Source: an uncultured Gammaproteobacteria bacterium
GTDB lineage: Bacteria > Pseudomonadota > Gammaproteobacteria > Arenicellales > JAANXG01
Assembly (NCBI GenBank): GCA_947259175.1
Contig: CAMYKW010000071.1
Span: 1 to 33,361 of the forward strand
Length of the DNA: 33,361 nucleotides
Reading direction: 5' to 3'
Position 1 is the stretch's first letter, and each line of letters starts with the position of its first letter. The translations under genes were made by a program, and so were the position numbers. A model generated the notes under the pieces. That model made no database searches and was not told where the DNA came from. It saw only the letters and a program-made list of their open reading frames with translations. Positions 20,327 through 33,361 of the stretch are shown piece by piece.

Positions 20327-21502
20327 TCATAGCGGGGGTGCTCGTGCGGGAGGTGTACGCGGTAGGGTCTCGATGATGGTCATGGCCGCACCGCAAGTTG
20401 GGCATACATAGGTGTTGCGGGGTGTATTGTTGTTGTCTTGCGCGGTTTCGGTTTGTTCGTTGGTATGGTGGATGAGAAGTGTGCGCAGTCGTTTCAGGTT
20501 TGGGGTGCGCACGGGATTGGCGAACAGTCCGAAGTGGCGGATGCGATGGAAGCCTTTGGGGAGGACGTGGATCAGGAAGCGGCGGACGAACTCCTCGGCG
20601 GCAAGGGTCATGGTTTTGTAGCGTTTATTACGCTTGACGCGATAGTCCTTCCATTTGAAGGTGACGCGGTGTTGATCGTAGGCGATGAGTCGGCGATTGG
20701 AGATGGCGACGCGATGGGTGTAACGGGAGAGGTATTCGAGCACGGCCGCGGGGCCTGCGAAGGGGCGTTTGGCATACACCACCCATTCGATCTGGCGCAG
20801 CGGTGCCAAGAATTGGTGGAAGGCACGGGTATCGGCGAGGGGTTGGAGCGGTCCGAAGAAATGGAGACGTTTCGCGCGGTGTGTGGCAATGAGTTGTTCG
20901 AGGAACACCCGCCGGAAGTATCGCGACAGCACGCGCACGGGTAGGAAGAAGCCGCGTTTGCACGGGACCCATTGTTGCCCATCGAAGGACAGTCCGCCGC
21001 CGGGGACGATGCAATGCAGGTGCGGGTGATGGGTCAAGGCCGAGCCCCAGGTGTGGAGCACGGCGATGAAACCCAGGCGTGCGCCTAAGCGTTTGGGGTC
21101 GGCGGCGATGGTGAGTAAGGTCGCGGCGGTGGCCTTAAATAACAGGTCGTAGACCACCGCCTGATTCTGATAGGCGATATTGCCAATGGCGGCGGGCAAG
21201 GTGAATACGACGTGGTAGTAAGGGACCGGGAGGAGTTCGGTCTGGCGATTGGCGAGCCAACGTTTGGCGGCGGCGCCCTGGCACTTGGGACAGTGCCGGT
21301 TGCGGCACGAGTTATAGCCAATCTGCTGGGTGGCGCAGCGATCGCAACGCAATACGTGGCCACCGAGCGCGGCGCTGCGGCAGCGCTCGATGGCCGACAT
21401 GGCCCGGAGCTGACCGAGGCTGATATGTCCTGCGTTTTTAACGCGCCACGTCGGCCCGTGGTCGCGGAAGATATCCGCGACCTCCCACAGAGGCCGAGCC
21501 AC
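20327..21502 (-). CDS. IS91-family transposase (HUH, Y2)
   Basis: A 391-residue rolling-circle transposase. The N-terminal zinc-binding region has CDRC...CRNRHCPKC. The HUH motif is in HPHLHCIVPGGG near residue 175, and two catalytic tyrosines spaced Y-x3-Y lie in EYLSRYTHR near residue 265. The C-terminus ends with a CPTCG zinc-ribbon-like pair. The start is GTG at 21502, 9 bp after the stop of the tyrosine recombinase gene upstream, so the two form one operon. All catalytic motifs are present, so it may be active. IS91-type elements can mobilise flanking DNA by one-ended transposition. Confidence 0.93.
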   Translation of the reverse strand: MARPLWEVADIFRDHGPTWRVKNAGHISLGQLRAMSAIERCRSAALGGHVLRCDRCATQQIGYNSCRNRHCPKCQGAAAKRWLANRQTELLPVPYYHVVFTLPAAIGNIAYQNQAVVYDLLFKATAATLLTIAADPKRLGARLGFIAVLHTWGSALTHHPHLHCIVPGGGLSFDGQQWVPCKRGFFLPVRVLSRYFRRVFLEQLIATHRAKRLHFFGPLQPLADTRAFHQFLAPLRQIEWVVYAKRPFAGPAAVLEYLSRYTHRVAISNRRLIAYDQHRVTFKWKDYRVKRNKRYKTMTLAAEEFVRRFLIHVLPKGFHRIRHFGLFANPVRTPNLKRLRTLLIHHTNEQTETAQDNNNTPRNTYVCPTCGAAMTIIETLPRTPPARAPPL

Positions 21503-21511
21503 GGCCGGGGG

Positions 21512-22396
21512 TTAGCTCAGGGTTTTAAGATCCAAATACTCCAGGGGGCCTTTGACCTCGCGTAGCAGACTCGCCGCGACCTGGCTGTAGCGGGCGGTAT
21601 TCTCGAGTTTCTTGTGGCCGAGCAATATCTGGATAATGCGGATATCCTCGTGGTGCTCGAGCAAGTGCGTGGCGAACGCATGACGTAAAGAATGCAGCGA
21701 CACGTGCTTGTCGATCTCGGCGGCGCGGCGCGCCAGGTGAAACGCGCGGTTGAGTTGCCGGGTGGACATGGGGTTCACTGGGTTCTGGCCCGGAAACAGC
21801 CAGCCCCCGGGGAGCAGCTTGTGCTGCGCCCGGCCCTGGCGCCACCAGGCGCGCAACAGTTGCAGTAGCGCCGGCGAGAGCATGGCGTAGCGGTCTTTTT
21901 TGCCCTTGCCCTGTTCGACGTGAAGCACCCTGCGTTCGCTGTCGATGTCGGGCACCTTGAGGTGCACGACCTCGCTGGCGCGCAAGCCGGCCCCATACGC
22001 CACGCCCAGTGCCGCTTGGTACTTGCGGCTACCGGCGGATTGCAGCAGGCGCGACACTTCTTCCACGCTCAAGACTTCGGGTAACTTGCGCGGTTCGTAG
22101 ACGTGACGCATCTTCTTCATCGCCTCGGGGCGATCTACTGTTACTTCGAAGAAGAATTTCAAACCGGTGATTTGCGCGTTCAAACTGACCCTCGAGACAC
22201 CCTGTTCGACGAGATGCAACTGATACCGCCGTAGATCCTCCGCTTCGGCGGCGTCGGGAGACCGCCCGAAAAAATGTGTGAAGTTCTTGACCGCCCGGAT
22301 ATACGCGATCTGCGTCTTGGGGGAGAGCTTACGCAACGTCATGTCCTCGATCATGCGTTGGCGTAACGGACTGATAGGTTTGTTAGACTCTGTCAT
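21512..22396 (-). CDS. Tyrosine recombinase accompanying the IS91-like transposase
   Basis: A 294-residue phage-integrase-family recombinase. An N-terminal SAM-like DNA-binding domain (MIEDMTLRKLSPKTQIAYIR) precedes a catalytic domain with the arginine in GAGLRASEVVHLKV, HSLRHAFATHLLEH, LGHKKLENTARYSQV and the nucleophilic tyrosine in ARYSQV. All key residues are present. A subgroup of IS91-like elements carries such a recombinase directly upstream of the HUH transposase, and that is the arrangement here. Its precise role in transposition is not established. Confidence 0.92.
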   Translation of the reverse strand: MTESNKPISPLRQRMIEDMTLRKLSPKTQIAYIRAVKNFTHFFGRSPDAAEAEDLRRYQLHLVEQGVSRVSLNAQITGLKFFFEVTVDRPEAMKKMRHVYEPRKLPEVLSVEEVSRLLQSAGSRKYQAALGVAYGAGLRASEVVHLKVPDIDSERRVLHVEQGKGKKDRYAMLSPALLQLLRAWWRQGRAQHKLLPGGWLFPGQNPVNPMSTRQLNRAFHLARRAAEIDKHVSLHSLRHAFATHLLEHHEDIRIIQILLGHKKLENTARYSQVAASLLREVKGPLEYLDLKTLS

Positions 22397-30803: not shown

Positions 30804-31823
30804 ATGAACCGCGCAATTACATTTGACGACGTCCTGCTGGTTCCCGCATACAATCACTGGGAGTCGCGGCGAGGGGTGGATGTTTCAGTGGTTGACCGCA
30901 TCGGGAAGCTCAGTCTGGATCTGCCATTGATGAGTTCAAACATGGATACCATCACTGAAGTCGCTATGGCCGACTTTATGGGAGAAAAGGGGGGCATCGG
31001 AGTGATGCACCGCTTCATGCCTGTCGAGGAAAATGTGACGATGTGGAAGGCCTGTAAGCATCGGACTTTCGTGTCTATCGGTTGCTCGGAAAAGGACCTG
31101 GAGCGCACCGAGGCGTTACGCGATGCTGGGGCCTCGCTTTTCTGTGTCGATGTGGCTCATGCCCATGCCAAGTACGTGGGGCGCACGCTCAAGAAAGTGC
31201 GCGACATGTTGGGGCGGGACACCTGCCTTATGGCAGGCAATGTCGCGACCTACGCCGGTGCCGATTACCTGGCCTCCTGCAGTGCCGACATCATCAAAGT
31301 GGGAGTTGGAGCCGGGTCGGTCTGTACAACGAGAATCAAGACCGGTTTCGGTGTCCCCAGCCTTACGGCCATCCGTGAATGCGCCAAACTGGATCGTTCA
31401 ATCGTTGCCGACGGCGGTATGCGCAGCCCGGGTGACCTGGTGAAGGCGCTGGCCTTTGGCGCCGATTTCCTGATGGTTGGCAGCCTGCTGGCCGGAAGCC
31501 GACCGACTCCAGGTGTGGTCCAGTGCCGTAGGGATGACGCGGGAAACGAGGAGAAGTTCAAGGTCTATCGCGGTATGGCCAGCAGCGAAGTTCAGGACGA
31601 TTTCCACAGCGGTATGGCCGGTTGGAGGACAGCCGAGGGTGTTTCGATCGAGGTCCCCTACAGAGAAGATGAGGAATCGATCATCGCCGACATTATCGGC
31701 GGGCTGCGCAGTGGACTCACGTACGGTGGGGCCAGTACTATCAAGGAGCTGCAGCGCAAGCTGGATTATGTGGTGATAACCCCGGCTGGCCGCACCGAGA
31801 GTCTGGCTCACCGCGCCCTGTAG
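30804..31823 (+). CDS. guaC: GMP reductase / IMP dehydrogenase-family protein
   Basis: A 339-residue TIM-barrel enzyme without CBS domains. The substrate loop GVGAGSVCTTRIKTGFGVP carries the catalytic cysteine, preceded by MSSNMDT and the NAD(P)-site DVAHAHAKYV; ADGGMRSPGDLVKALAFGAD binds phosphate. The absence of CBS domains and the TAEGVSIEVPYR segment favour GMP reductase (GMP to IMP with NADPH), while YRGMAS resembles IMP dehydrogenase. I chose ATG 30804, preceded by GGGAAAAATC, over ATG 30792, which has no ribosome binding site. Purine salvage role is inferred. Confidence 0.82.
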   Translation: MNRAITFDDVLLVPAYNHWESRRGVDVSVVDRIGKLSLDLPLMSSNMDTITEVAMADFMGEKGGIGVMHRFMPVEENVTMWKACKHRTFVSIGCSEKDLERTEALRDAGASLFCVDVAHAHAKYVGRTLKKVRDMLGRDTCLMAGNVATYAGADYLASCSADIIKVGVGAGSVCTTRIKTGFGVPSLTAIRECAKLDRSIVADGGMRSPGDLVKALAFGADFLMVGSLLAGSRPTPGVVQCRRDDAGNEEKFKVYRGMASSEVQDDFHSGMAGWRTAEGVSIEVPYREDEESIIADIIGGLRSGLTYGGASTIKELQRKLDYVVITPAGRTESLAHRAL

Positions 31824-32097
31824 TAACCGCTTGCAGATAGACTTCCGCAATGTTTTCAGATGGGTTGCTTTCCGGAGTTGAACTCCTTGGTTGCAGACAT
31901 CTTGGCTAGCTGCCAGAGTAAAAATGCTGGTCTGGTGAACCTCACCCACTGTCACGGCGTGTTTTTCCCCATCGTGTTTTTGATCCGAGTTATTGTGGAT
32001 TAATAGTTGTAATTGAATGACCGCTTACAGAATGTTAACAACGCCTATTGGCAAGCCTCTCAGTCAATCTAATCGTTCGGCAAGACGCGACCCGACT

Positions 32098-32130
32098 CGG
32101 TCATTCGTGCCCAAGACTCCCGAATGACCG
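32098..32130. promoter_or_regulatory. Inverted repeat, candidate enhancer-binding site
   Basis: Perfect 10-bp arms CGGTCATTCG and CGAATGACCG separated by 13 bases. It lies about 240 bp upstream of the sigma-54 promoter, the usual distance for an enhancer-binding protein such as a PrsR-like activator. It has no T-run. Function is inference. Confidence 0.5.
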
Positions 32131-32367
32131 GTCTATATTACTTCCCGGACCAGCGACGACCATGGGGCGGTGCGCGACTGAGATGCATGTCTGTATGGTC
32201 GTTGGGTAATTAGCTTTGTTCTATCGACCGATCCGATCCGCTGGGTAATAGCCTGAGTCGGACGCGGCTTCGGTCGCCCCTTTTTCTGTCGGTCTTCTTT
32301 ACGATTTAGAAACCGAGAGCTTTCCTGTGTTTTTTTAACCAATTGTATTCCCTTGTGAAAGTAATTT

Positions 32368-32383
32368 TGGCGCAGAACTTGCT
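32368..32383 (+). promoter_or_regulatory. Sigma-54 (RpoN) promoter
   Basis: TGGCGCAGAACTTGCT fits the consensus TGGCACG-N4-TTGCW with the invariant GG and GC at correct spacing. It is 74 bp before the leader ORF and 209 bp before the PEP-CTERM start. PEP-CTERM genes are known in several bacteria to be under RpoN with the PrsK/PrsR two-component system, which makes this match credible. Confidence 0.72.
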
Positions 32384-32456
32384 TTCTAAGATGTATTGAG
32401 GACGGCAACGGTGGGTGCGACCGATTCCTTTAACCTACTTAAAGAGGTGAAGGAGG

Positions 32457-32540
32457 ATGAACATAATCCATAAACAGCTAGCAACAAGCCTTGTCTTGGC
32501 TTTGGAACCCCTAGCGGCCTATGCGATACCCATCACATGA
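32457..32540 (+). CDS. Short leader ORF with signal-peptide character
   Basis: A 27-codon frame preceded by AGGTGAAGGAGG, the strongest ribosome binding site in the window. The peptide has a basic start and the hydrophobic ATSLVLALEPLAAYA ending in a signal-peptidase-like AYA, then only four more residues before TGA. The stop abuts an ATG (32541) in the frame of the PEP-CTERM gene. It could be the remnant of a secreted-protein gene truncated after its signal, or a translated leader. It is too short to be assigned. Confidence 0.45.
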   Translation: MNIIHKQLATSLVLALEPLAAYAIPIT

Positions 32541-32591
32541 ATGATCAGTGACTTAGTATTAGATTACCTTGCAGAATTAGGAGGCGATAAA

Positions 32592-33215
32592 ATGATATCC
32601 CCCAACACCAGGCAATTCTTTCGTTCGTTGTTGATTTCCGGAATTTGTTTCGGGGTGTTGACAGGCTGGAATACTCAGTCCCAAGCATCGTTAATCCATG
32701 ACATCTTTGGCTGCGAGTTCGATTCAAACGCTAATCCATTTAATTGTACAGATCCTCTCGGCACCATCGAGTTTCCAACGGAGTCGGGTTCCACGACGGG
32801 GCCGGATAGCATTATCCTGGATTACACCCTGGTTGGAACAACGTTTGACGAAAACGATATTCAAAATGCTACCTGGTCGATTGATTCCAACAGCTGGATA
32901 CTGACCGAATTAGACATGAGGATTGATACCAATCCGGACTGTTTAAGCGGTACTATCGGCGCGTGTAATTATGCCGCTGTGGACTTTAGGCTGCCATCGA
33001 CAACTGGTTTTCCTGCGGGGATAGCTAATGCTGATCCGTCCGGCGGTGGTTGCAGTATAGACTCGAGCACAGGACAATTAGTATGTGCTTCATCAATTAG
33101 TCTCGGCGCTAATGTTTTTGTTGCGCAGCATGTTCCAGAACCCGCCACCATCGCCGTCCTGGGCGTGGGTCTTGCAGGTCTAGGCTTCGCAAGGCGGCGC
33201 AAGAACAGCGCTTAA
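32592..33215 (+). CDS. PEP-CTERM sorting domain protein
   Basis: A 207-residue secreted protein. A signal peptide (hydrophobic LLISGICFGVLTG, cleavage near SQA-S) is followed by an acidic, Ser/Thr/Asn-rich region without recognised domain, with cysteines scattered (GCEFD, NCTD, DCLSG, ACNY, GGCS, LVCAS). The C-terminus is the classic tripartite signal VPEPATIAVLGVGLAGLGF plus ARRRKNSA, recognised by exosortase (EpsH/XrtA type) for surface display. AGGAGG seven bases before ATG 32592 decides the start; the frame extends to 32541. No exosortase is nearby. Related proteins are linked to exopolysaccharide and floc formation. Confidence 0.92.
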   Translation: MISPNTRQFFRSLLISGICFGVLTGWNTQSQASLIHDIFGCEFDSNANPFNCTDPLGTIEFPTESGSTTGPDSIILDYTLVGTTFDENDIQNATWSIDSNSWILTELDMRIDTNPDCLSGTIGACNYAAVDFRLPSTTGFPAGIANADPSGGGCSIDSSTGQLVCASSISLGANVFVAQHVPEPATIAVLGVGLAGLGFARRRKNSA

Positions 33216-33244
33216 AATAATAAAATCAATTATGCTGTAACAGG

Positions 33245-33264
33245 CCCCGCTTCGGCGGGGTTTT
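33245..33264 (+). terminator. Intrinsic terminator of the PEP-CTERM gene
   Basis: CCCCGC-TTCG-GCGGGG followed by TTTT, 29 bp after the stop codon. A textbook stem, stable tetraloop and U-run. Confidence 0.92.
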
Positions 33265-33267
33265 GTT

Positions 33268-33361
33268 GTGCGCCCAGCATGGGCGCGATCTTGGAGGTGA
33301 AAGTCCTCCCGCGAGCTGACCACAGCGAGCGAAGTGAATCGCAACTGCGTGAGGGTGACCG
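33268..33361 (+). mobile_element. Group II intron 5' end (runs off the window)
   Basis: The sequence begins GTGCGCCC, matching the 5' GUGYG start of group II introns. It then forms the stem GCGCCC/GGGCGC and the stem GGAGG-TGAAAG-TCCTCC, followed by GAGCTGACC and GCGAGCGAAGTGAATCGC, an arrangement typical of domain I of bacterial group II introns. It starts three bases after the terminator T-run, the usual insertion site for class C introns. The open reading frame and 3' end are outside the window, so class and completeness are unknown. Confidence 0.75.

Follow-up and report, generated by a model that had tools for sequence, protein, structure and literature searches.

The closest described system is the PrsK/PrsR class of promoters of PEP-CTERM genes. 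According to the accessible sections of Haft 2006 (PMC1569441), promoters of this class carry a 17-nt motif 1, with TTTACA as its last six bases, and then, after a spacer of 62.8 ± 10.6 nt, a sigma-54 motif, and motif 1, repeats of which are noted there, is proposed as the site of the activator. Experimental results that, as far as the accessible text of each report goes, support the class come from two organisms. In Aquincola tertiaricarbonis, pepA is an RpoN1-dependent PEP-CTERM gene with a mapped transcription start behind −24/−12 motifs, and its authors note a predicted enhancer upstream (PMC9850573). In Desulfovibrio vulgaris, the response regulator DVUA0057 is predicted to control PEP-CTERM genes, its five predicted PEP-CTERM targets being enriched in DAP-chip; the figure legend shows no validated binding motif for it (PMC3333781).

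The window (the whole 33,361-nt stretch of DNA analysed here) has near its end a PEP-CTERM gene whose promoter, judged by its sequence, is a member of this already published class. It resembles the class, as the same sections of PMC1569441 present it, in the 17-nt motif, the length of the spacer and the placing of a −24/−12 element 5′ of a PEP-CTERM gene, and its relatives resemble it further in repeating motif 1. It differs in an extra 75-nt element upstream, which those sections do not mention, and in its assembly, which, unlike the Haft class, holds no PrsR above the cut-off. The pepA promoter is from another organism, with no 75-nt element described in the accessible part of PMC9850573. 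We consider it probable that the locus has a Haft-class promoter with a PrsR-type box, that a perfect dyad lying further upstream is not the operator and that the 75-nt module around this dyad is an exchangeable upstream cassette. A PrsR-type response regulator would bind the box and, once bound, would activate sigma-54 polymerase at the −24/−12 element, a layout supported by comparison with relatives. The 75-nt module would be part of an upstream cassette that recombination or transposition carries from one PEP-CTERM locus to another, the coding bodies differing while the cassette spreads. The elements concerned are listed below.

32087–32161, plus strand: conserved 75-nt upstream element that holds the dyad and of which seven genomes from two genera have 20 strong copies in all
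32098–32107, plus strand: left arm of the dyad, CGGTCATTCG, pairing perfectly (10/10) with the right arm
32121–32130, plus strand: right arm of the dyad, CGAATGACCG, containing GAA.G.C.G of the nearly invariant element core
32257–32370, plus strand: block next to the promoter, sharing 79% identity across 114 alignment columns with the block of a different PEP-CTERM gene in a relative (G003 contig 37)
32287–32303, plus strand: motif 1, the putative PrsR-type activator box, TGTCGGTCTTCTTTACG, with 12 of the 13 fixed positions of the box in relatives
32368–32383, plus strand: predicted sigma-54 (−24/−12) promoter element, TGGCGCAGAACTTGCT, from a sequence scan, in a layout shared with relatives
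32457–32540, plus strand: 27-codon frame resembling a signal peptide, closed by a TGA and in the same frame as the PEP-CTERM gene
32592–33215, plus strand: gene for a PEP-CTERM protein ending VPEPATIAVLGVGLAGLGFARRRKNSA, in a frame open from 32541 with its likely start at ATG 32592

Promoter architecture of the PEP-CTERM gene

The downstream gene had been called PEP-CTERM in an earlier note on this DNA, and the assignment was confirmed by scores of 34.5 bits for PF07589 (cut-off 20.7) and 25.5 bits for TIGR02595 (cut-off 16). It is the only PEP-CTERM gene above the Pfam cut-off in the genome, and an AGGAGG at 32579–32584 stands ahead of the likely ATG. The strong RpoN match claimed for its promoter was likewise recovered at 32368–32383 by a weighted scan of the whole window, in which the score of TGGCGCAGAACTTGCT was attained at two sites of the plus strand, 19488 and 32368, and nowhere on the minus strand. 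An equally good site was found on one strand in 0.6% of Markov-simulated 768-nt sequences. The transcription start is expected near 32394, and a promoter scan of 31800–33361 found no sigma-70 site on the plus strand. As in the class of Haft 2006, GG at −24 and GC at −12 occur in an element 5′ of the PEP-CTERM gene (32368–32383), and the end of motif 2 is separated from the probable start codon by 208 nt, within the class range of 23–221 nt. RpoN itself is likely to be encoded in this genome because ten NtrC-type proteins were matched there at E ≤ 1e-90.

The box at 32287–32303 lies upstream of the sigma-54 element with a gap of 64 nt, inside the 32–92 nt at which the 17-nt motif 1 of the class precedes motif 2. 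It is the sole site with at least 12 of 13 positions anywhere on the two strands of the 33-kb window, and a box of this quality arose in 0.15% of simulated 768-nt sequences. The consensus in relatives is TGTCGG...T.TTTACA, where likeness to the published motif 1 is judged by the TTTACA end only; the box in the window ends in TTTACG, with a final G that is also present in two of 19 boxes of relatives. A second box is common in the relatives, often 110–125 nt further upstream, and none was found in the window.

Box and sigma-54 element together precede 20 of 36 PEP-CTERM genes, the window's included (17/28 in its own genus and 3/8 in a sister genus), with gaps of 68.6 ± 10.5 nt compared with the published 62.8 ± 10.6 nt. 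This repetition of the layout supports the proposal that the sigma-54 promoter belongs to the PEP-CTERM gene. The 36 upstream regions were taken from genomes G000–G006 (G000 being the window's draft genome), leaving out matches in G008 and G012; they derive from 37 matches, two of which fell in one frame on G005 contig 144 and were counted once, and three of the genes have less than 230 nt of upstream sequence. The same test was passed by 5.8% of 740 simulated regions, and with a stricter box (at least 11/13) by 17 of the 36 real regions and none of the 740. Since the box pattern was fixed after part of the relatives' sequences was already known, the window provides its fairest test. In six of the 20 promoters the longest frame begins within the sigma-54 element or ahead of its end, so the real start codon must there be further downstream. 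These results correct the choice of the sequence regarded as the probable activator site, and the genus-specific PrsR-type box can be used for finding the regulon.

A conserved 75-nt element upstream of the promoter

When the intergenic region was compared by BLAST with 60 relatives, the region of the dyad proved to be conserved. An alignment of ten copies and two sequence models agree on 20 strong copies of a 75-nt element in seven genomes, which belong to two genera, with one to seven copies per genome; the training set of the second model included 19 of these copies, so its agreement with the first is partly by construction. Copies were scored among the best 150 candidates of each genome, and weak ones may be missed. 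The covariation test described below is based on ten copies. A 20-row alignment combines 19 of the strong copies with a weak one on G005 contig 249 and omits that on G003 contig 120, the element sequence of which is identical to the copy on G002 contig 66. The core GAA.G.C.GGT.T is nearly invariant. As far as its aligned copies go, the module is asymmetric and low in copy number, and it has so far appeared in the window's genus and one sister genus. No match was found in plasmids or phages, and the exact 20-nt core occurred in one record among 84,980 species genomes, a set from which the records nearest the window's genome are perhaps excluded. A literature search outside supplements, figures and most subscription papers retrieved no paper on such an element, which is apparently undescribed.

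A PEP-CTERM gene lies downstream of ten of the 20 copies, each of them in the orientation of the gene; one of these loci, on G001 contig 237, is counted here with a frame that looks broken and with no box. Behind the copy on G003 contig 120 come box and promoter and then the end of the contig, behind that on G003 contig 11 an intact box ahead of a GAF-domain/cyclase gene, and behind that on G001 contig 98 a degraded box (10/13) where G003 contig 11 has the intact one. Two copies have no assignable context, being at a contig end (G001 contig 119) or by an IS30-family transposase (G001 contig 126). The remaining five, on G004 contigs 41, 128 and 26, G006 contig 63 and G001 contig 343, lack both a PEP-CTERM gene and a box, and several of them are near the 3′ ends of genes. 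The 36 PEP-CTERM upstream regions amount to an estimated 0.13% or so of these genomes but contain nine of the 19 copies outside the window, a strong enrichment. The earlier note had offered the dyad as a motif worth searching for; the sequence around it does recur upstream of other PEP-CTERM genes, whereas the perfect dyad does not.

The association could mean that PEP-CTERM promoters have in the element a further regulatory site, distal to the box, at which another regulator or a bending protein works with PrsR, and we regard this as possible, though the less expected outcome. It is consistent with the single orientation of the ten PEP-associated copies, with the near invariance of the core and with the position of the first box, which begins 60–196 nt after the element in the nine PEP-associated copies that have one and which follows three further copies, one in degraded form. 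The distribution of the element fits a distal site less well. Within the window's genus a strong copy is present at ten of 28 PEP-CTERM genes and absent from 18, and the 17 genes with box and promoter divide into nine with and eight without it. Five copies stand alone, as listed above, and two related loci, on G001 contig 57 and G005 contig 249, share 79% identity in promoter and gene start, with only part of the element recognisable in the latter. An accessory cis-regulatory role is possible; with modest confidence we consider an exchangeable module more likely than a second operator.

Upstream regions shared by unrelated PEP-CTERM genes

The preference for an exchangeable module is supported by the similarity of upstream regions among genes whose products are not alike. 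A comparison of 34 of the 36 regions yielded 35 similar pairs on the same strand, as against one on opposite strands and none in five simulated sets. These 35 pairs are mutually dependent, and in 28 of them the proteins, taken without their last 32 residues, gave no BLASTP match at 1e-3, and in 20 of these 28 both loci carry the 75-nt element. The window's own upstream region matches eight others, with protein similarity in none. Besides the block shared with G003 contig 37, a stretch overlapping 32257–32370 has 73% identity with G006 contig 30. Exchange of upstream cassettes, the favoured explanation, would produce just such shared regions with unshared proteins; alternatively, the proteins may have diverged faster than the promoters.

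Some observations sit less easily with exchange. The association of half the copies with PEP-CTERM genes in a fixed orientation would be expected equally of a functional cis element, copies associated with PEP-CTERM genes are by their scores slightly closer to the consensus (in a model trained on both kinds), G001 contig 98 has a degraded box, and plasmids and phages gave no match. REP- and MITE-type repeats are short, interspersed, intergenic and partly palindromic, with flanks in different combinations. The element has these features in common with them, its 20 strong copies in seven genomes being interspersed and intergenic and its flanks combining differently. It departs from them in having just one to seven strong copies per genome, half beside a single gene family and in one orientation, and in having no identified transposase partner, an IS30-family transposase being adjacent to one copy only.

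We tentatively extend the exchangeable-module reading, as a speculation that is rather doubtful in its full form, to a shared pool of regulatory cassettes on which the PEP-CTERM genes of the genus would draw, the 75-nt module marking or mediating the link between a single PrsR/sigma-54 type of promoter and coding bodies that are unrelated. If such a pool exists, recombination would bring new surface-protein genes under the same control. The module and the shared upstream regions bear on the common control of large surface-protein families.

Two details of the flanks were recorded. At loci L054 and L064, and by BLAST also at L094, L099 and L101, CGTAAATCAATCGAACCTGACCC stands behind the element, beginning at one and the same point in these copies. 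At L105 (G001 contig 126) the IS30-family transposase, split over several frames, starts close behind the element, which may be a target of this transposase.

RNA features and the perfect dyad

An RNA feature, either a stem-loop leader or a small RNA, is very improbable as an account of the element. The copy in the window can fold a 10-bp stem, and a terminator-like hairpin occurs at 32264–32277, but the scan count for the latter was 1 compared with 1.8 in shuffled sequences. Folding was no better than in shuffles (z = −0.60), the region gave no Rfam match at the gathering score and one at chance level, and the element is upstream of the probable transcription start. In the ten-copy alignment the dyad cells paired in 71.0% of cases versus 71.7% after shuffling, and the covariation of the arms was no greater than in shuffles. 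An RNA stem or known RNA family was rejected on the folding, covariation and Rfam results.

The dyad itself is as it had been described: a perfect 10/10 inverted repeat at 32098–32107 and 32121–32130, with a loop of 13 nt, some 240 bp (32130 to 32368) ahead of the sigma-54 element. Of simulated 768-nt intergenic sequences, 1.15% contained a perfect 10-nt inverted repeat with a loop of 3–30 nt. Seven such repeats are present in the window as a whole, where 1.05 are expected, so the dyad is not rare here as a kind of feature. The exact dyad, with a loop of 8–18 nt, occurs once in the 4.18-Mb draft genome. Among the 20 aligned copies of the element only that in the window has all ten pairs, 18 other rows having three to seven and one lacking the left arm. 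GAATGACCGGT, which is the right arm with the bases that follow it, is nearly invariant at most positions in the 20 rows. The left arm is variable, its commonest form, GAGCCGTTCG, being found in four of the rows; part or all of it is missing in three rows and it has a gap in one. The dyad is, on this alignment, a perfection private to the window's copy of a conserved 75-nt module.

The earlier note had suggested that the dyad may be the operator of an enhancer-binding protein such as PrsR and had proposed a search for it at other PEP-CTERM genes of this genome. As the genome has a single such gene above the cut-off, the comparison was made in relatives, where the perfect form does not recur. 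Its perfection, its distance from the promoter and the 1.15% expectation for a single intergenic region speak for an operator, but this is the least credible of the readings and was rejected: the perfect dyad is single in the genome and among the 20 copies, its arms do not covary, five copies of the element have neither PEP-CTERM gene nor box, the match to the published motif is elsewhere (32287–32303) at the published spacing, and the usual Fis-type operators are unlike arms 13 nt apart. An integron attC-like site was considered because the element has inverted ends and the window encodes a tyrosine recombinase; it was set aside, as no contig with two copies was seen and the recombinase scored 157.9 against an integron cut-off of 265.

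PrsR and exosortase in the genome

No PrsR above the TIGR02915 cut-off was found in the window's genome, a 97.7% complete draft, the best candidate having 410.4 bits against 502.6. This candidate scores higher as AtoC, and the adjoining kinase frame is most like AtoS. PrsR exceeds 700 bits in G002, G005, G006 and G012. Exosortase (PF09721) had no match in the window's draft and is present in three of 13 genomes of the family, and the other genomes of the genus have from 0 to 14 PEP-CTERM matches. PrsR and exosortase are patchy among the drafts, so loss in assembly is possible.

Sequence downstream of the promoter

The nearest relative of the PEP-CTERM gene, in G005, is 75% identical over 129 amino acids and carries a stop, with no PEP-CTERM tail in the frames read after it. 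The 27-codon frame ahead of the gene may be a leader peptide or a remnant. A decayed sequence on G001 contig 186 (L052) has an end similar to this frame. Relatives of gene and promoter that have decayed, at L052 and at L056 (G005 contig 37), run into the same downstream sequence, perhaps a shared insertion.

Between 33243 and 33361, 3′ of the PEP-CTERM gene, inspection by eye showed a hairpin, GCCCCGCTTCGGCGGGG, whose tail is rich in T and which was not called by the scan. It is followed by GTGCGCCCAGCATGGGCGCG, cut by the end of the contig, which we take to resemble a bacterial group II intron at its 5′ end; a search of 212 nt gave no Rfam match to such an intron. Elsewhere in the window, an IS91-family transposase lies beside the tyrosine recombinase at 20327–22396 on the minus strand.
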